A stretch of 30,031 bases of DNA, from the IMG/VR virus record IMGVR_UViG_3300021335_000063, positions 1 to 30,031 of that record. One strand, 5' to 3'. A program made the translations under genes and the position numbers. The notes beneath the pieces were generated by a model. The model had not been told where the DNA came from. It made no database searches and saw nothing but the letters and a program-made list of their open reading frames with translations. This document shows, in pieces, positions 3,986 to 30,031 of this stretch. Within the stretch, counting starts at the first letter, position 1. Each line of letters begins with the position of its first letter. Origin of the DNA: a virus.

Positions 3986-5962
3986 ATGATAGAAGAGTCG
4001 TTAATTAAAAGTAATTTTATTGGTAGGGACGGATTTCGTTGGTGGATCGGTCAGGTTGCACCAACTTCTGCATGGCAGGCTCAAGCAGATGGTAAAGGGT
4101 GGGGACACAGATATAAAGTAAGAATACTTGGTTATCATCCTTACAATACTTCCGAACTTTCTGATGATGATTTACCGTGGGCAGGAGTTTTAATGCCTAC
4201 AACTGCCGGTAGTGGAGGTGGACATTTTTCTCAAAGTGCTGCCATTGCTCAGGGAGATGTTGTAATTGGATTTTTCCTTGATGGAGACAATGCACAGATT
4301 CCTATGATTATGGGATCTTTTGGAAAAACTCCATATGTTCCTTCAATGGAACCTTCAAATCCATTCATGCCTTTTACTGGATTTACATCAAATATAAAAA
4401 GTCCAGAAGGAGCACGAGATACTAAAGAGTCTTCAGGTCAGAATAGAGATGATCAAAAATTACAGAGAAATTTAAGTGAAGATCAAATAAAAAAAGTCAA
4501 TGCACAAAAGAAGGAGGAAGAACCGAAAGAAATACCAGCATCAAAGGCAACTGGACAAACCGTAACACACGCAGATGCTTGTGAAGATAATTTTGTAAAT
4601 GAGATTACCAATATCTTAGACAATCTTATAAAGATTACAAGCGAGGCAACTAATTTTCTTGGAGATGTGCAAAGTGCAATAAAGAAAATACAGGTACTTG
4701 CAAACGGATTCGTTGGTAATTTATTTGATTCTCTATACAAAAAACTAATACCACTTATGCAAAGTGGATTGAAAGCACTTTATGATTCCACCTTTGCAAC
4801 TGTTTTAGCATCTACTGCAAATCCTTTCATTGCACACTTAGCTGGAGTTGCCGCACAAGAGGGAATGGTTGCACCAGTTGGAGCACTTCAAAAAGCAATG
4901 GCTTGTGTTTCTGCAAAAATTATCAATGGACTTGGAGATACGATTAAGGGACTTGTAGAATCTACATTATTAGAAGTTGTCAATTTTGGAGTTTGTGCTG
5001 CAGAACAGTTTGTTGGATCTCTTTTAAATGGCATTATCGATCAAATATCTTCCGGTCTAGAATCTGCATTGGGTGCTGTATCTAGCATCTTGGGTCCAGC
5101 GTTCAAAATCTTAGATTTCCTAACAGGTGCTGCCGATATACTCAAATCAATTAAGGGATTTTTCACCTGCGAACAAACAAAATCTTGTGCTAGTGTGAAG
5201 GAATGGACAATTGGATATGGTCCAAAAAATAGAGCAGCAGCGAATAAAGCTCTTGATAAGGCACTGGAAAATGCAAATATAGCAAGGTTACTACCAAAAG
5301 TTCCTGGGGAAGAAAATTCACCATATACAAAACCAGATTGTGGAGAACCTTCAAGTTGTGGTGGTCCAACCGTATCATTCTTCGGTGGAAATGGCATTGG
5401 TGGTGCTGGTAAGGCAATTCTTGGTGGAATTGTAAATAATACCAGTGGTCTAAGTGATATTACTTCTTCCGTTACAAGAACTGCAAGCATTATTGGTGTA
5501 GAAATAACGGATCCTGGAAGTGGTTATTCTTATGCCCCACCAATGGTAACTTTTGAAGACTCTTGTGGTCTTGGATATGGTGCAGTTGGAAGATGTATTA
5601 TTGATTATGATTCGGACTCTCCAACTTATGGTCAAATTACAGGTGTCTATATCGTATCTGAAGGAGAAAACTATCCAGTAGAAGATGATGAAGAAAATGC
5701 AGTTACTGATACTTTCATTATTAATTCTGGGAACGGATATACACCTGGCGATACTGCAATAGATGAAAATGGAACTGAGTATAGTTTGACCATTGATAAT
5801 GGTAAGATTATTAAAGCAACACCAATAAATAGTGATATTACAGATTACTTACCAAGAATCACGGTTAATAGTGAAACTGGTACTGGTGCTCTTATTAGAC
5901 CATTGATCGGTCCATATAATCCACAGAAAGAAGTTGTAAGTGTAATCGATTGCGTATCTTAA
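3986..5962 (+). CDS. gp5: gp5-like baseplate hub protein, OB-fold, no lysozyme domain
   Basis: Residues ~15-115 resemble the T4 gp5 OB-fold: an opening FRWWIGQVAP, a VRILGYHPYN strand, DLPWAGVLMPTTAGSGGG (T4 gp5 has a closely similar LPWMSVIQP segment), then GDVVIGFFLDGDNAQIPMIMGSFG. T4 gp5 then carries a lysozyme and a triple beta-helix, whereas this 658-aa protein does not. Residues ~120-190 are charged and Lys/Glu-rich. Residues ~190-450 are hydrophobic and helix-prone with several cysteines. Residues ~500-658 contain beta modules with the GSGY/GNGY pattern (PGSGYSYAPPMVTF, NSGNGYTPG) that recur in other fibre proteins of this window. The spike beta-helix is on the next gene and the lytic activity two genes upstream, so the T4 gp5 functions appear divided among three proteins. 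Confidence 0.8.
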   Translation: MIEESLIKSNFIGRDGFRWWIGQVAPTSAWQAQADGKGWGHRYKVRILGYHPYNTSELSDDDLPWAGVLMPTTAGSGGGHFSQSAAIAQGDVVIGFFLDGDNAQIPMIMGSFGKTPYVPSMEPSNPFMPFTGFTSNIKSPEGARDTKESSGQNRDDQKLQRNLSEDQIKKVNAQKKEEEPKEIPASKATGQTVTHADACEDNFVNEITNILDNLIKITSEATNFLGDVQSAIKKIQVLANGFVGNLFDSLYKKLIPLMQSGLKALYDSTFATVLASTANPFIAHLAGVAAQEGMVAPVGALQKAMACVSAKIINGLGDTIKGLVESTLLEVVNFGVCAAEQFVGSLLNGIIDQISSGLESALGAVSSILGPAFKILDFLTGAADILKSIKGFFTCEQTKSCASVKEWTIGYGPKNRAAANKALDKALENANIARLLPKVPGEENSPYTKPDCGEPSSCGGPTVSFFGGNGIGGAGKAILGGIVNNTSGLSDITSSVTRTASIIGVEITDPGSGYSYAPPMVTFEDSCGLGYGAVGRCIIDYDSDSPTYGQITGVYIVSEGENYPVEDDEENAVTDTFIINSGNGYTPGDTAIDENGTEYSLTIDNGKIIKATPINSDITDYLPRITVNSETGTGALIRPLIGPYNPQKEVVSVIDCVS

Positions 5963-5963
5963 T

Positions 5964-6539
5964 ATGGCAGAAAGACCGGTACAAAATACAGAAGCAAGAA
6001 AGTATATAAGTTGGGGTCCAAAAGTTAGAATGGACTTCTGCAATTCCCAAATGAACGGGGATGGAACGAATGTTTATACTCTTTATGGATTTACTGATGA
6101 CCAGGACGTTCATTTGCAGATGTTTAATGAGAGTGGAATCTTTCATATGCACAATGATAGAGCAATTGAACTTGTTGCTGGTTCTAAAAATGCTCCTGGT
6201 GACGTAGATTTTGAAATTATTGGTATGAATGGTGATATCAACATCACTTGTTTGAAAAATGGTGCTGTTAGAATCAAAGCACAAAGCATTGAGCTGCAGG
6301 CAGATGAGGATATTAATATAGAAGCAGGTAGAAATCTAAATCTCACAGGAAAAAATGGAAGATGTTTAGTTAAAAGTAAAGATGTGAGTGTTGATGGCAA
6401 TGAAGGAAACTTGGTTGCGGCAACTATTGGAGATTTTAGTCAAAAAGTATTTGAGGGAAGTTTTGTTGGCACAGACTTGTTTAAGTTTGCGCTTAAACAA
6501 GTTCCAATTGTTGGCGAACCAGTAGCATCGCTTTTCTAA
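5964..6539 (+). CDS. beta-helical tail spike/needle protein (gp5 C-terminal-domain-like)
   Basis: This 191-aa protein has a central run of short alternating beta repeats (residues ~70-140), for example GDVDFEIIGMNGDINITC, GAVRIKAQSIELQADEDI, NIEAGRNLNLTGKNGR and KSKDVSVDG. They have the hydrophobic/polar alternation and regular Gly/Asn/Asp turns of the trimeric beta-helix at the end of T4 gp5 and of VgrG/gpV spikes. Its position directly after the gp5-like OB-fold gene, one base from that stop, supports a role as the membrane-piercing needle attached to the hub. It contains no PAAR-type tip that I can recognise. It may trimerise on the hub, but that is inference from the fold. Confidence 0.65.
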   Translation: MAERPVQNTEARKYISWGPKVRMDFCNSQMNGDGTNVYTLYGFTDDQDVHLQMFNESGIFHMHNDRAIELVAGSKNAPGDVDFEIIGMNGDINITCLKNGAVRIKAQSIELQADEDINIEAGRNLNLTGKNGRCLVKSKDVSVDGNEGNLVAATIGDFSQKVFEGSFVGTDLFKFALKQVPIVGEPVASLF

Positions 6540-16727: not shown

Positions 16728-16934
16728 ATGGGCACCGCACAAGAATCTGTTCTCGGCATCGTTATTGACGTTTGCACCCGCTCCTTCCTTCTGCTCAGCG
16801 ATGAGGGTAATGAAAAGATGGTAAACTGTGATACCGTCCAAGAGTTTATGAATGTCCTGGAAGTTGTGACTGCTAACCTTAATGAAGACCAGATTGAGTA
16901 TGCTGACCTTGCTATTCAGGGAGAAGAGTATTGA
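16728..16934 (+). CDS. hypothetical small acidic early protein
   Basis: I do not recognise this 68-aa protein. It is acidic (pattern LSDEGNEKMVNCDTVQEF, then LNEDQIEYADLAIQGEEY) with a beta-prone N-terminal third and a helix-prone remainder. The start is supported by GGAA (16718-16721) six bases before ATG and by the consensus promoter just upstream. Its stop TGA overlaps the ATG of the following Phd/YefM-like gene by one base, so the two are translationally coupled. The coupled pair recalls toxin-antitoxin operons, but the protein has no RelE, Doc or PIN-like motif and is acidic, so I do not call it a toxin. Its G/C content is visibly higher than that of the fibre genes around it. Confidence 0.65.
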   Translation: MGTAQESVLGIVIDVCTRSFLLLSDEGNEKMVNCDTVQEFMNVLEVVTANLNEDQIEYADLAIQGEEY

Positions 16935-17107
16935 TGGAAGTATTTACGATTAAGGAATGGGAAGACAACTTTGATTCCCTCCTTGAGAGGGTAGAAAATG
17001 GAGAGCATATAGGTATTATGGGAGATGATGGTAAAGCAGCAGTTATGATACCAGCAGATGATGAACTTCTCCGAATATACACGGAGAATAATAACGAAGC
17101 ATCGTAG
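16934..17107 (+). CDS. Phd/YefM-like antitoxin family protein (orphan)
   Basis: This is a 57-aa ORF running from the ATG at 16934 to the TAG at 17105. The sequence VFTIKEWEDNFDSLLERVEN, GEHIGIMGDDGKAAVMIPAD follows the Phd/YefM N-terminal pattern of a short strand, a helix ending in E-R-V-E-N-G, a strand, and G-K-A-A-V. Phd/YefM proteins bind operator DNA and neutralise a partner toxin through a C-terminal segment. This one is short (usual length about 75-90 aa), so the toxin-binding tail is reduced to about 15 residues. No toxin gene follows, because tRNA-Ile starts 11 bases later. It overlaps the previous stop by one base (TGATG). It may act as a decoy antitoxin or as an autoregulator of this operon; both are inference. 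Confidence 0.65.
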   Translation: MEVFTIKEWEDNFDSLLERVENGEHIGIMGDDGKAAVMIPADDELLRIYTENNNEAS

Positions 17108-17118
17108 TTCATCATCAC

Positions 17119-17190
17119 GGGAGTATAGCTTAATGGTTAGAGCGCCCTGCTTATAACGGGGTAGTCTGGGTTCAACTCCCAGTACTCCTA
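17119..17190 (+). tRNA. trnI: tRNA-Ile (anticodon TAT)
   Basis: The cloverleaf is complete: acceptor GGGAGTA/TACTCCT (pair 1-72 is G-U), D-stem GCTT/GAGC, anticodon stem CCCTG/CGGGG (one T-G pair) with loop CTTATAA, and T-stem CTGGG/CCCAG with loop TTCAACT. Discriminator A is at 17190 and CCA is not encoded. The anticodon TAT reads ATA directly. Bacteria usually read ATA with a lysidine-modified CAT tRNA, so this phage tRNA would support its A/T-rich codon use. Confidence 0.9.
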
Positions 17191-17194
17191 TCGT

Positions 17195-17268
17195 GCTGGT
17201 TTAGCTCTCTGGTTGAAAGCAGCGAACTCATAATTCGCCTAAGGTGGGTTCGATCCCCACAACCAGCA
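17195..17268 (+). tRNA. tRNA-Met or tRNA-Ile2 (anticodon CAT)
   Basis: The acceptor is GCTGGTT/AACCAGC with discriminator A at 17268 and no encoded CCA. The D-stem has three pairs (GCT/AGC). Anticodon stem GCGAA/TTCGC carries loop CTCATAA, and T-stem GTGGG/CCCAC has loop TTCGATC. The CAT anticodon fits elongator Met, or Ile2 if lysidine-modified. It is not an initiator tRNA by its ordinary acceptor pairing and anticodon stem without G-C triplets. It begins four bases after tRNA-Ile. Confidence 0.88.
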
Positions 17269-17277
17269 CTACAATTT

Positions 17278-17362
17278 GGGAGCGTGGCGGAATCGGTAGA
17301 CGCACCTGACTTAAAATCAGTTGGGCATTGTGCCCGTGGGAGTTCAAGTCTCCCCGTTCCTA
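17278..17362 (+). tRNA. trnL: tRNA-Leu (anticodon TAA)
   Basis: This is an 85-base class II tRNA with a long variable arm (TTGGGCATTGTGCCCGT, itself a GGGC/GCCC hairpin). The acceptor is GGGAGCG/CGTTCCT, the anticodon loop is CTTAAAA (anticodon TAA, reading TTA) on a CTGA/TCAG core stem, the T-stem is GGGAG/CTCCC with loop TTCAAGT, and discriminator A is at 17362. CCA is not encoded. TTA is frequent in the fibre genes. Confidence 0.92.
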
Positions 17363-17365
17363 TAA

Positions 17366-26225: not shown

Positions 26226-26290
26226 CCCTGTAGACTACCTTTGTCCCGGTTGAAGATGAGACTCTAAGATCTTACCGGAACCAGTTAGGG
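26226..26290 (+). other. long imperfect hairpin between late cluster and helicase
   Basis: The core hairpin is 26246-26278: CCGGT/ACCGG and AAGAT/ATCTT with a two-base bulge and an 11-base loop. Outer complementarity exists between CCCT (26226-26229) and AGGG (26287-26290), and between ACT and AGT inside it. There is no U-tract, so it is not a standard terminator. It may end late transcripts by another means, protect a 3' end, or be part of an RNA element. Confidence 0.4.
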
Positions 26291-26334
26291 AACTGTCACA
26301 GAGCCCATCGGTAGGGGCCCCATCGTGCTATAAT
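26291..26334 (+). promoter_or_regulatory. extended -10 promoter with upstream AACTGTCACA box (helicase)
   Basis: TGCTATAAT (26326-26334) is a perfect extended -10. There is no good -35 at the usual 17 bases. AACTGTCACA (26291-26300) lies 25 bases before the TG, the same spacing as at 29896. The spacer contains a GGGGCCCC palindrome (26314-26321) and direct repeats CCCATCG at 26304 and 26319, fifteen bases apart. Transcription would start near 26341. Confidence 0.6.
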
Positions 26335-26359
26335 AGTCCTATACGCGATGAGGACTGTG

Positions 26360-27547
26360 ATGCAACTCCGACCCCACCAGCAAGACGCTCTGGATTCTAT
26401 GCTGGCATTTGACAAGGGTCAGATTGTCATCCCCACTGGGGGTGGTAAGACTCCTGTTATGTTCCACGATTTGATTGTCAATTGTCAGTATATCGACAAT
26501 GGTATGACTACCGTTGTTGTTGCTCCTCGTATTCTTCTTGCTGAGCAACTGTGCTCTGAGTTTCTGGAGCACATTGACACTACTAACACTCATATTCTTC
26601 ACGTTCACAGTGGTGAGACTCATCACTTTTCTACTACTAACCCTAGTAAGATTAACCTGTTCGTCAACACTGCACGGACTGCTGGTGAGAATGTAATTAT
26701 CTTTACCACCTATCATTCTCTGCATCGTCTGCAACAGGCAGATGTTGAGGTCAATACCATTTACTTTGATGAAGCGCACAATTCGGTCCAACGTAACTTC
26801 TTCCCTGCTACGGAGCACTTCTCTGCTACTGCTGACCGCTGCTATTTCTTCACTGCTACTCCTAAGCATTCTCTTACTGTTTCCAAACCTGGGATGAATG
26901 ACCCTGAGGTCTATGGTCAGGTAATCTGTAACGTCCCTGCTCCTAAGTTGGTAGAAGAAGGTTATATCCTTCCTCCTAAGGTTGTTGTGAAGCAACTGGA
27001 TATGGTACAGGACAAGCAGATGATTGCTGACCGTGATAGTCAGAATCTGCTGGATACTATTGATGAGAATGCTCTGGATAAGATTCTCATTTGTGCTCGT
27101 TCTACCAAGCAGATTGTCAAACTTCTGGCAGAATCTGACTTCCGCAAAGAGTTGTCCGAGCGTGGTTATTCGGTGATGTATATTACTTCCAAGACTGGTG
27201 CTATTATTGATGGTCAGAAGGTCAACCGTGAGGTATTCTTTGACACTCTGAATGCTTGGGGCAAGGATTCTAACAAGAAGTTTGTTGTTCTTCACCACAG
27301 CATCCTGTCCGAGGGCATCAACGTCAGCGGTCTGGAAGCAGTCCTGTTTATGCGTAATATGGACTACATTGGAATCTCTCAGTCCATCGGGCGTGTCATC
27401 CGTCTGGGAGGCGCTCAGAAGACCTTTGGACTGGTCTGTGTGCCTGTCTATGATAAAGTGGGTATCAGCACCGCCAAGAGCGTTCAGGCGGTCGTTGACA
27501 CCGTTTTCAATCAGGGTCTCCCTGCCGTTTCTGTCATCCGTCGTTGA
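26360..27547 (+). CDS. SF2 DEAH-box DNA/RNA helicase
   Basis: This compact superfamily 2 helicase (395 aa) has motif Q-like LRPHQQDAL, Walker A PTGGGKT (residues 25-31), motif Ia VVVAPRILLAEQL, motif II DEAH (137-140), motif III FTATP (164-168) and motif VI QSIGRVIRLG (341-350). ATP-driven unwinding is well supported. Substrate and pathway are not, although UvsW-type recombination/repair is a reasonable guess in a T4-like phage. I chose the ATG at 26360 over 26348: GAGG sits six bases before it, and the predicted transcript starts near 26341, leaving almost no leader for 26348. Codon use is richer in C/G (ctg, gtc, cct) than in the fibre genes, consistent with early genes of different history. 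It forms an operon with the next two genes. Confidence 0.9.
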   Translation: MQLRPHQQDALDSMLAFDKGQIVIPTGGGKTPVMFHDLIVNCQYIDNGMTTVVVAPRILLAEQLCSEFLEHIDTTNTHILHVHSGETHHFSTTNPSKINLFVNTARTAGENVIIFTTYHSLHRLQQADVEVNTIYFDEAHNSVQRNFFPATEHFSATADRCYFFTATPKHSLTVSKPGMNDPEVYGQVICNVPAPKLVEEGYILPPKVVVKQLDMVQDKQMIADRDSQNLLDTIDENALDKILICARSTKQIVKLLAESDFRKELSERGYSVMYITSKTGAIIDGQKVNREVFFDTLNAWGKDSNKKFVVLHHSILSEGINVSGLEAVLFMRNMDYIGISQSIGRVIRLGGAQKTFGLVCVPVYDKVGISTAKSVQAVVDTVFNQGLPAVSVIRR

Positions 27548-27550
27548 ATC

Positions 27551-28114
27551 ATGAACAACAAAAAACTTCGCAAACTCGAAATCTACTGCCAAGCTACATT
27601 CAATGCACTAAAATCTAATCTAGAACTGTGGGATCCTACTGATGAAGACATTGTTCGTGTTGTCACTCGATTCTATTATGAAGGAATCTTCAGTTGTCAG
27701 TATGGTGATACTGGACTGATTAGTGAGGAAGCATCTAAGGCAGTATCAACAGATCGAACAGATGATCACTGCTGGAGTCCTCAATTTGTCGGTCGTTATG
27801 TGATGGACAATGCTCACATTTATCTGGAAGATTATGATGAGTTTCGCAATCTGTTTCAGTCTGCTTGTACTAAAATTAAAGTTCTGAAGTCTGAGAATCG
27901 TAAACTGTCACAACTTACCAGTAACAAGCAAGGAGAATCTTACAAAGTCTTTGTTCCTACTGATAAAAAATACCAGCATCTTGGTATTAATTTGTTTAAG
28001 AGACCTGATGGTAAGGTACGTTGGGATTCTGCACAACCCACTGATGAGACTATTAAATATCACAAAGGTCTGCTAGAATATGAGAAGCAATTCATCGTCA
28101 ATGAAAACGGTTGA
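27551..28114 (+). CDS. hypothetical protein, possible weak HNH-like pattern
   Basis: This 187-aa protein starts three bases after the helicase stop, so it is co-transcribed. The N-terminal 45 residues are helical. TDDHCWSPQFVGRYVMDN (D72-H73) is followed forty residues later by KSENRKLSQL (E115-N116). A D-H then E-N-x-x-L arrangement recalls the outline of some HNH-type or phage endonuclease-like proteins, but the final His is not obvious, so I do not assign nuclease function. The C-terminal third (YKVFVPTDKKYQHLGINLFK, RPDGKVRWDSAQP) is beta-prone. It overlaps the next gene by 14 bases. Treat as unknown. Confidence 0.65.
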   Translation: MNNKKLRKLEIYCQATFNALKSNLELWDPTDEDIVRVVTRFYYEGIFSCQYGDTGLISEEASKAVSTDRTDDHCWSPQFVGRYVMDNAHIYLEDYDEFRNLFQSACTKIKVLKSENRKLSQLTSNKQGESYKVFVPTDKKYQHLGINLFKRPDGKVRWDSAQPTDETIKYHKGLLEYEKQFIVNENG

Positions 28115-28592
28115 GAGACACAGATATAGAGATAAAGTAATATTTCAGACTCGGACATTGGTCTTTGAACCATATCCGATGTCTGAAATTTTTGCTGTTA
28201 TGGAGTCAATTAGGAAAAACCTGTCTCCAGATCTGCTGAAGGGACGGAAGTCCTTGATGTACCCACAGGATTTGCAGAAAAATCATTTTTATGGTCATTG
28301 CTACCATTCTTCTCAAGCACTGTACTACTTAATGGACACAGATGCACTGGTTCCGATGAGTGCAACTGATTATCGTGGTGAAAAACACTGGTGGTTGCAA
28401 GATGGGGACACTATCTATGACATAACTGCTGAACAATATACCTCTGTTGGTCAAGAACCGCCATATGTTGACGGAAAGAAAACACCGTGGTATGGTTGGA
28501 AGCAGCGTCCACAGCAGGTTTCTCTGAACCTGGCGGTTCGCGTTCTTGGAGACAGACTGGCTCTTGACAAGATCACAGACAAGTCTGTATAA
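28101..28592 (+). CDS. conserved-type phage protein with Cys-His-Asp arrangement, unknown function
   Basis: This 163-aa protein is counted from the ATG at 28101. An in-frame ATG at 28080 would add seven residues and enlarge the overlap with the previous gene. The central part, HFYGHCYHSSQALYYLM, then EKHWWLQDGDTIYDITAEQY, has a form seen in many phage hypothetical proteins: a GHC Cys (C67) before a helix, an HW (H96) and a D-x-T-A-E-Q segment (D107). The order Cys-His-Asp matches papain/transglutaminase-like triads, but this is a resemblance only. The last gene of the helicase operon, it also contains the promoter of the following gene at its 3' end. Confidence 0.65.
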   Translation: MKTVERHRYRDKVIFQTRTLVFEPYPMSEIFAVMESIRKNLSPDLLKGRKSLMYPQDLQKNHFYGHCYHSSQALYYLMDTDALVPMSATDYRGEKHWWLQDGDTIYDITAEQYTSVGQEPPYVDGKKTPWYGWKQRPQQVSLNLAVRVLGDRLALDKITDKSV

Positions 28593-28593
28593 T
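28564..28593 (+). promoter_or_regulatory. consensus sigma70 promoter (TTGACA-18-TATAAT)
   Basis: A perfect TTGACA (28564-28569) and TATAAT (28588-28593) are separated by 18 bases, inside the last codons of the preceding gene. The predicted start near 28600 gives a 78-base leader to the ATG at 28678. Confidence 0.75.
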
Positions 28594-28600
28594 AACCACA

Positions 28601-28640
28601 TCGGATTCGTCCGAGTCAACCTAACTCCATAACGGTTGAT
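28601..28640 (+). promoter_or_regulatory. structured 5' leader: UUCG-loop hairpin plus second stem-loop
   Basis: TCGGA-TTCG-TCCGA (28601-28614) is a 5-bp hairpin with a UUCG tetraloop at the very 5' end of the predicted transcript. GTCAACC (28615-28621) can pair with GGTTGAT (28634-28640) as a second 7-bp stem. The ribosome site AAGGAAGG follows unpaired. 5'-terminal hairpins of this kind often slow mRNA decay. That role is inference. Confidence 0.5.
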
Positions 28641-28677
28641 CTTACACAACTTACCGAAACCAAAGGAAGGTAAAACA

Positions 28678-29886
28678 ATGGTACAAACGTTACTAAATCT
28701 TTGCGAACTTTTTCGTAACAAAGTTCCTGAAGTCGTTAAAGTACTTCTCCAACAATTGCCAGTTCTGGATAAAGCACCTCAAGGACTGCCATTATTGGAA
28801 GATGTAATAGAAGCACACTCCAGAGGAGAGTATGAGGGCATTGATTCTGTCCACGTCTCTGCCAGAATTGGAGACATTATGACTGATCCTGAGTACAATC
28901 GTGGAGATAATCTGCGATATGGTAATCAGGAGAGAGATCTTAATAGAATGGGAGGTTTTTCTCATCGAGCAGCAGGAACTCTTGTCGGATTTCTTCGTCC
29001 TGGTGGTGTGGTAGTTGCCACTCAAGGTAACAATCGCATCTCTATGCTTTATGGTGTGACTCAAAATGAGTCAGAGCGAATTTCATTTCTTCTCAATTTC
29101 CATAAATCTGGAATTTCTCTTGTAGAAATGAAGCGCGTAGAAGCAGAGAATCACAATGCAGACTGTAACTTCCGTTCCAATCAAAGCACGGATGAAAAGT
29201 TTAAGTCCGCATACTTCTCTAAGCAACCTTGGGCTCTTGAAATCTTCGATTTTCTAAAACCATTTAATATTGGAGTTGCTGGAACACTTGAGGGTGCTGT
29301 TTTCAACTGCACTTCACATTCTTACATTGATAAAGCACGAAATGAAGCTGGCGAGGATTTTGTCAAACGCTTTCTTGAGACGCACGTCAATGTGTTCTCC
29401 GCAGATAACTGTGACAAAGAAGTCTATGGTAATTTTGTGAGAGGAGGATCATCTTTCCTATCTGTTTTTTCTGCTCACATCGCTGAAGTGGATGAAAAAA
29501 ATGGAGGAATTAACTCTTTCCGCGATATGATGCGTCATTATTTCGCTGATAGAGAAAAGGAAGCACTTGCTACTAGAAAGATTCTTGAAAAGTCTGGTGC
29601 TTCTAAATCAGCTATTGCATCTGTTCCTGTTAAAAAGTGTTTGACACAGGCAGACATTACTCAAGGTAATCGAGTAATCAAAGGATATACTTTGTTTGTT
29701 TGCCGTTTCGTAAGTCTTTACAATGATTATTGTGAAGAGCAAGAACTTGATTATAACAAAACTTATGCAACTGCTATTCCTGTTGTTGATGGAAAGACCT
29801 TTGCAAACTTTATCAAGAAAGAAGATCCTATTCTTCGACCTTCATTCATTGACGTTGCAAAGAATCCAGTTGTTCATAAAGACTGA
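28678..29886 (+). CDS. hypothetical protein with a weak ParB-like segment
   Basis: I do not recognise this 402-aa protein. The ATG at 28678 is chosen because AAGGAAGG stands just before it; an upstream TTG in frame lacks a site. Residues ~55-127 (VHVSARIGDIMTDPEYNRG, then FSHRAAGTLVGFLRPGGVVV, ATQGNNRISMLYGV) faintly resemble ParB/DGQHR-type domains, in which a G-(N/H)-x-R motif follows two strands. Residues ~205-245 contain FKPFNIGVAGTLEGAVFNC. Residues ~250-330 are charged and helical. It has no signal peptide or membrane segment. Its own consensus promoter and structured leader suggest high early expression. Confidence 0.65.
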   Translation: MVQTLLNLCELFRNKVPEVVKVLLQQLPVLDKAPQGLPLLEDVIEAHSRGEYEGIDSVHVSARIGDIMTDPEYNRGDNLRYGNQERDLNRMGGFSHRAAGTLVGFLRPGGVVVATQGNNRISMLYGVTQNESERISFLLNFHKSGISLVEMKRVEAENHNADCNFRSNQSTDEKFKSAYFSKQPWALEIFDFLKPFNIGVAGTLEGAVFNCTSHSYIDKARNEAGEDFVKRFLETHVNVFSADNCDKEVYGNFVRGGSSFLSVFSAHIAEVDEKNGGINSFRDMMRHYFADREKEALATRKILEKSGASKSAIASVPVKKCLTQADITQGNRVIKGYTLFVCRFVSLYNDYCEEQELDYNKTYATAIPVVDGKTFANFIKKEDPILRPSFIDVAKNPVVHKD

Positions 29887-29895
29887 CAATTGATC

Positions 29896-29939
29896 AACTG
29901 TCACAAGGGGGGTTCAAAGACCCCCCTTTCTGCTATAAT
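29896..29939 (+). promoter_or_regulatory. extended -10 promoter with AACTGTCACA box (right-edge gene)
   Basis: AACTGTCACA (29896-29905), 25 bases, then TGCTATAAT (29931-29939), the same layout as at 26291. The spacer holds the G-run/C-run hairpin. The ATG at 29965 follows the -10 by 25 bases. Confidence 0.6.
29905..29930 (+). terminator. rho-independent-like terminator
   Basis: AAGGGGGG (29905-29912) pairs perfectly with CCCCCCTT (29921-29928) around the 8-base loop TTCAAAGA, 18 bases after the stop of the 402-aa gene. The following T-run is only TTTC, so termination may be partial. Confidence 0.65.
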
Positions 29940-29964
29940 ACTTAAGTAATCAAAGGAAACCGCC

Positions 29965-30031
29965 ATGAAGTGCAAAGTCACTCTCTATGATGCTGGAACC
30001 GTTTTTGAGGAGATTGTTATTGCCCGCGACT
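29965..30031 (+). CDS. small phage protein, 3' partial
   Basis: An ATG at 29965 is preceded by AAAGGAA (29952-29958) and by a promoter with a 25-base gap from the -10. The visible 22 residues (MKCKVTLYDAG, TVFEEIVIARD) look like the two-strand start of a short cytoplasmic phage protein. The frame is open to the right edge. I cannot assign a function. Its promoter leader is nearly the same as that of the 68-aa gene at 16728, so both may belong to one early expression class. Confidence 0.65.
   Translation, partial: MKCKVTLYDAGTVFEEIVIARD

Follow-up and report, generated by a model that had tools for sequence, protein, structure and literature searches.

The window, by which we mean the whole stretch of 30,031 nt analyzed here (IMG/VR record IMGVR_UViG_3300021335_000063), is the 30-kb record of a T4-like cyanophage. 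Its nearest named relative over the region of interest is the Synechococcus phage S-SKS1, with about 80% identity across 31% of a 4.3-kb query, and in both, tail genes, the helicase and small ORFs follow one another in the same way. The 10-mer AACTGTCACA occurs at three places in the window, in each case on the plus strand (26291-26300, 27903-27912 and 29896-29905). A preliminary description had pointed out that the copies at 26291 and 29896 are followed by exactly 25 bases and then by TGCTATAATA, that the two spacers are unlike in sequence, and that neither promoter has a good -35. We confirm this arrangement at both positions, and a search for TTGACA 16-18 bp before the -10 likewise found no good match, so that neither promoter has the -35 of a plain sigma70 early promoter.

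The first of these promoters begins with operator 1 (26277..26300, plus strand), a 24-bp imperfect palindrome of the form GGAACCAGTT-AGGG-AACTGTCACA, whose left arm occupies 26277-26286 and whose right half (26291-26300) is the box that had been noticed at the outset. With the weight matrix described below, it has the best total in the window (35.3), and the columns of its left half are conserved across independent sites. The 25-bp spacer (26301..26325, plus strand) lacks a -35 and contains a weak hairpin (GCCC/GGGC; fold of -6.9 kcal/mol). It is followed by the extended -10 TGCTATAATA (26326..26335, plus strand), with TATAAT at 26329-26334 and a predicted +1 near 26341. Behind it lies the gene for a UvsW-type DNA helicase (26360..27547, plus strand; Pfam ResIII/DEAD/Helicase_C; PHROG 16, DNA helicase), which probably starts at the ATG at 26360 (MQLRPHQ...), 19 nt past the predicted +1, rather than at the upstream ATG at 26348.

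Operator 2 (29882..29905, plus strand) has the form ACTGACAATT-GATC-AACTGTCACA, with its left arm at 29882-29891 and the previously described box as its right half (29896-29905), and it overlaps the stop codon of the upstream ORF (29884-29886). Its weight-matrix total of 33.4 is the second best in the window, and apart from these two operators no site in the window scores above 15. The 25-bp spacer (29906..29930, plus strand) holds the terminator-like hairpin AGGGGGGTTCAAAGACCCCCCTTTC, which has a 9-bp stem and a fold of -16.3 kcal/mol; coming after the stop codon of the upstream ORF, it is probably the terminator of that gene. The extended -10 TGCTATAATA is found at 29931..29940 (plus strand), with TATAAT at 29934-29939 and a predicted +1 at about 29945-29946. 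The gene behind this promoter (MKCKVTLYDAG...; 29966..30031, plus strand) is cut by the end of the window, and its position is syntenic with S-SKS1, where its counterpart, SWZG_00242, matches PHROG 685, a family of unknown function.

Could such an arrangement arise by chance? First-order Markov shuffles of the window (n = 300) contained a mean of 0.17 exact 10-mers and in no case three copies, a single shuffle had even one 10-mer with TATAAT 10-44 bp downstream, and the reversed-pattern control gave no match in the window. The 10-mer on its own is not unusual (6 occurrences in the window at up to one mismatch versus 4.0 expected), and significance rests on its pairing with a -10. The paired observation is thus real and not fortuitous, the copy at 27903 excepted. 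This third AACTGTCACA (27903..27912, plus strand), left at first as either a weak member or a chance occurrence, lies inside coding sequence and is to be read as chance, because it has neither a left half-site nor a -10 at 24-28 bp and is missed by the weight-matrix scan even at the low threshold of 14.

The Upstream Box Is One Arm of a 24-bp Palindrome

A scan of IMG/VR with the pattern AACTGTCACA-N25-TGNTATAAT recovered at least 119 stretches in 96 distinct versions, located before different genes and amounting to 60 sites after dereplication. Among these 60 sites, several columns that the pattern had not selected are conserved and correspond to an inverted left arm, CANTT, with C in 97% of sites at -59, A in 85% at -58, T in 85% at -56 and T in 68% at -55. 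Because this conservation falls outside the search pattern, the box is recognized as the right-hand arm of a longer, degenerate palindrome of 24 bp, TGTG(A/C)CAGTT-N4-AACTG(G/T)CACA, which spans about -64 to -41 and has its centre near -52.5. An iterative weight matrix derived from seven cyanomyovirus genomes has the consensus TGTG(A/C)CA(G/C/A)TT-N4-AACTG(G/T)CACA. The 60 sites also display a Y-A(+1)-T initiator 7 nt past TATAAT, with A in 83% and the next T in 73% of them. The initial reading of the box as the site of a regulator therefore holds insofar as the element is an upstream one of regulator type and not a -35, but what had been taken for the whole site is only half of it, and a dimeric protein is accordingly to be expected. 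The two arms pair no better than shuffled arms do (902 paired cells versus 885 +/- 11.6); given this absence of compensatory change, the palindrome is shown to be conserved in the manner of DNA rather than of RNA.

A Promoter Class of T4-like Cyanophages

Scanning with the weight matrix at gaps of 24-28 identified 20 sites in S-SKS1, 13 in S-CAM9, 23 in P-SSM2, 11 in Syn9, 25 in S-PM2, 2 in S-SM2 and 26 in S-T4, where the terminal repeat causes some sites to be counted twice. Those of Syn9 include sites at 43113, 49078, 51002, 51211, 127492, 130353 and 148742. Two genomes that had been held out of training, freshwater S-CRM01 and S-TIM5, have 22 and 8 sites, respectively, at the same gaps, and altogether seven Kyanoviridae genomes carry 11-26 sites each. 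The same scan found none in either T4 or Ma-LMM01 and 0-1 in shuffled genomes. A search for the strict palindrome with up to three mismatches gave a similar picture, with 54 places in eight cyanomyovirus genomes versus none for the reversed control. Hence, the search of related genomes that the preliminary description had called for shows the element recurring upstream of genes at near-fixed spacing and far above controls, in nine cyanophage genomes as well as in IMG/VR contigs, and the promoter class belongs to T4-like cyanophages.

The spacing itself is narrow. When gaps of 10-44 to an extended -10 were scanned in the last matrix round, 34, 61 and 33 sites had gaps of 25, 26 and 27, compared with 1, 1 and 4 in shuffles. 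Because retraining of the matrix was confined to gaps of 24-29, independent checks carry more weight here; the 25-27 peak was present already before retraining, and 181 further distinct IMG/VR sites, taken from flanks with the selected sites excluded, again gave 30, 91 and 26 sites at these three gaps. The spacing of exactly 25 is thus a property of both window promoters and not a fixed rule, since the class has its mode at 26 and a range of 25-28. The distribution has one sharp maximum and no second one displaced by a helical turn, which is compatible with a factor that touches polymerase directly.

What lies behind these promoters? At 69% of 119 strong sites, an ORF starting with ATG is found 8-40 nt past the predicted +1, as opposed to 12.7% at random positions; the mode is 15-19 nt, and across the class the ATG usually follows the predicted +1 by 15-20 nt. 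Boxes lie about 80 bp before the starts of the helicase and of small ORFs in Syn9 and before those of many small ORFs in P-SSM2, and in both genomes they also precede a peptidase-like gene and cobS. Within the tRNA/small-ORF region of S-CRM01 they are located before cobS, a peptidase homologue and many small ORFs, and the boxes of S-PM2 have a small-ORF context likewise. Clustering of the genes downstream of 479 sites yielded 103 UvsW-type helicases, 42 members of the MKCKV family, 21 of DUF7717, 10 peptidase-like genes and more than 100 singletons, the IMG/VR share of these counts being biased toward the helicase by the search pattern.

The spacers, too, have common features. Among the 141 distinct sites used for their analysis, a folding energy below -9 kcal/mol was obtained for 31% of the spacers, compared with 3% of shuffled ones. 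At least five of the six bases of TTGACA are present at 16-18 bp in 28 of the 141 (1.7 expected), sometimes in the loop of the hairpin. The strength of the box and the quality of the -35 are uncorrelated (rho of -0.015), and a stronger box compensating for an absent -35 is therefore not visible in this statistic.

Discussion

How might the palindrome act on transcription? We consider it probable that the two sites in the window are members of a cyanophage-specific, activator-dependent class of sigma70-type promoters, with a dimeric and most likely phage-encoded protein acting on the palindrome. In the scenario that we envision, this protein would bind the 24 bp between about -64 and -41 in such a way that the bound dimer adjoins the -35 region and helps host RNA polymerase to open promoters that have a good, often extended -10 and usually no -35. 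The activator would take the place of the -35 contact or add to it and might thus free the spacer for a terminator, there being little need for a -35. The spacer may accordingly often double as the terminator of the preceding gene, so that terminator and promoter are packed into one short unit in a genome densely filled with genes. The class would drive the UvsW-type helicase, CobS, the peptidase-like gene and many small genes of early type. We infer that a dimer binds and that it activates rather than represses. More tentatively, and with somewhat less than even confidence, we propose a palindromic operator common to the whole lineage (marine and freshwater Kyanoviridae as well as S-TIM5) and bound by a hitherto undescribed dimeric activator of phage origin, either delivered with the virion or made as an immediate-early product, that would redirect host polymerase to about 10-25 promoters per genome, many of them with the terminator of the upstream gene inside the -35 region.

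Alternatively, the phage might rely on a transcription factor of its host to occupy the operator as infection starts. Such a factor would be available at once, without delivery by the virion, if these genes are the first to be transcribed, and a few host genomes do contain near-perfect palindromes (G083, G007 and G019) or a small excess of them (e.g., four in G019). We nevertheless regard this possibility as unlikely. The density of palindromes in hosts is near background: the strict form was found 8 times in 11 cyanobacterial genomes, compared with 4 for the control, and 6 of 121 host-family genomes have any match at up to two mismatches. In a 1.2-Mb stretch of Synechococcus RCC307, the weight-matrix scan detected no promoter-like site, and strong boxes were below the shuffle (3 versus 22). 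The host palindromes that we inspected (L296-L299, in G019 and G083) have no -10 at the spacing of the class and thus lack the promoter layout. One of the inspected palindromes precedes an antitoxin-like HTH/PIN pair. Moreover, the operator is common to freshwater S-CRM01 and the marine phages, which also speaks against a borrowed host factor. Neither the two pattern searches nor the weight-matrix scan detected the operator in several host promoters, which makes a host regulon unlikely. For this reason, the activator that had initially been described as of phage or host origin is now better sought on the phage side, and the binding protein would be phage-encoded.

Conceivably, a phage protein could also use the palindrome as a repressor operator upstream of sigma70 promoters and shut these genes down at a later stage of infection. 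Repressors typically have operators of palindromic form, and the roughly 20% of sites with a -35-like hexamer could function unaided. Yet the core promoter is left uncovered by a site at -64 to -41, the tight spacing suggests contact with polymerase, and most sites have no -35. We regard repression as still less probable than a host factor. That the palindrome is instead a terminator or processing hairpin ending the upstream transcript is highly improbable, even though it can fold as a 10-bp stem and the annotation of S-CRM01 calls two boxes 'Rho independent terminator' (125862-125891 and 154634-154661), because it is not followed by a T run, its arms do not covary, its near-fixed distance to a downstream -10 is nothing that a terminator needs, and a separate terminator-like hairpin is often present in the spacer.

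If a phage-encoded activator is indeed at work, which protein is it? A phylogenetic profile over 11 genomes revealed no gene whose distribution closely follows that of the operator, with S-SM2 sharing most of the conserved genes but carrying just two sites, and Pfam and PHROG searches of the candidates named no regulator. The strongest of the small HTH-like candidates (PHROG 1920/1308) directly follows a box in S-T4, S-CAM9 and contig L033 alone; the family is missing from S-TIM5, and no solved relative of it was found. PSSM2_151, a 'DNA binding protein', was rejected as the regulator, being missing from Syn9 and S-PM2.

From a mechanistic perspective, promoters of the proposed kind would resemble the late promoters served by P2 Ogr and P4 Delta, where a small dimeric phage activator recognizes a palindrome near -55 and acts on host polymerase at promoters with a weak -35. 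The resemblance is one of working, whereas operator sequence, arm spacing and gene class differ from those of the cyanophage palindrome. The middle promoters of T4, which depend on a MotA box and AsiA, are likewise phage-directed and combine a good -10 with the lack of a -35. The MotA box, however, is a single box near -30, whereas the palindrome lies at -64 to -41, and T4 itself has no sites of the class. Cyanophages have been reported to lack motA and asiA (PMC5780444). Sites of NtcA (GTA-N8-TAC), which have been reported in cyanophages (PMC3037559), and those of CRP-type proteins (TGTGA-N6-TCACA) are also palindromes at which an activator binds ahead of a sigma70 -10 promoter. The conserved columns of the cyanophage palindrome fit neither spacing, and in contrast to these host sites it is not carried by hosts as a regulon.

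A novel regulatory element that controls early genes in Syn9 and P-TIM40, is conserved in T4-like cyanophages and differs from that of T4 is said to have been described by Doron et al. 2016. Quite probably the palindrome class is this very element, because Syn9 carries 11 sites of the class; phage group and kind of gene are alike. The palindrome, the layout with a terminator in the spacer, the members in S-TIM5 and S-CRM01 and the test for absence from hosts may or may not already be part of that work; in the other literature searched, we did not find the operator sequence in a phage context. Judging by gene content, by position and by the Syn9 study, the targets of the class would be early genes.

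The T4-like cyanophages, which abound in the sea, lack the MotA/AsiA system of T4, and this raises the question of how they turn on their first genes. A 24-bp operator, a spacing rule, a list of targets and a host-negative control together open the search for the activator to direct testing, and the operator offers a signature for finding this class of genes in metagenomes. A corollary of the terminator-inside-promoter layout is that annotated terminators in cyanophage genomes can be operators or promoter spacers.

The UvsW-type helicase gene in the window more likely starts at the ATG at 26360 (MQLRPHQ) than at the one at 26348, judging from the position of its promoter and from relatives. 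In the cyanophage S-SM2 (NC_015279), the helicase promoter is a canonical TTGACA/TATACT element in place of the palindrome and the genome holds only two sites of the class, which suggests that the operator has been lost or altered there. In freshwater S-CRM01 (HQ615693), two annotated 'Rho-independent terminators' (125862-125891 and 154634-154661) are here palindromic operators, and further annotated terminators (e.g., 137087-137103, 146122-146137 and 150748-150767) are spacer hairpins of the palindrome promoter class.

Elsewhere in the window, a glucosaminidase domain (PF01832) lies within a large tail-region ORF (1026-2657), and a small ORF (16931-17107) with sub-threshold similarity to Phd/YefM antitoxins is directly followed by three tRNA genes (Ile-TAT, Met-CAT and Leu-TAA; 17119-17363).

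A weak candidate for the protein that binds the box is a small, strongly conserved HTH-like protein (PHROG 1920/1308), encoded at 138979-139191 in P-SSM2, with counterparts in seven other Kyanoviridae. A box promoter lies immediately upstream of its gene in S-T4, S-CAM9 and the IMG/VR contig L033 (gene at 5896-6069).

Four near-perfect palindromes similar in sequence to the operator occur in G019, a host-family genome, and two of them (C28, 17475 and 18747; stretch L298) flank a gene pair encoding an excisionase-like HTH protein and a PIN-type protein.
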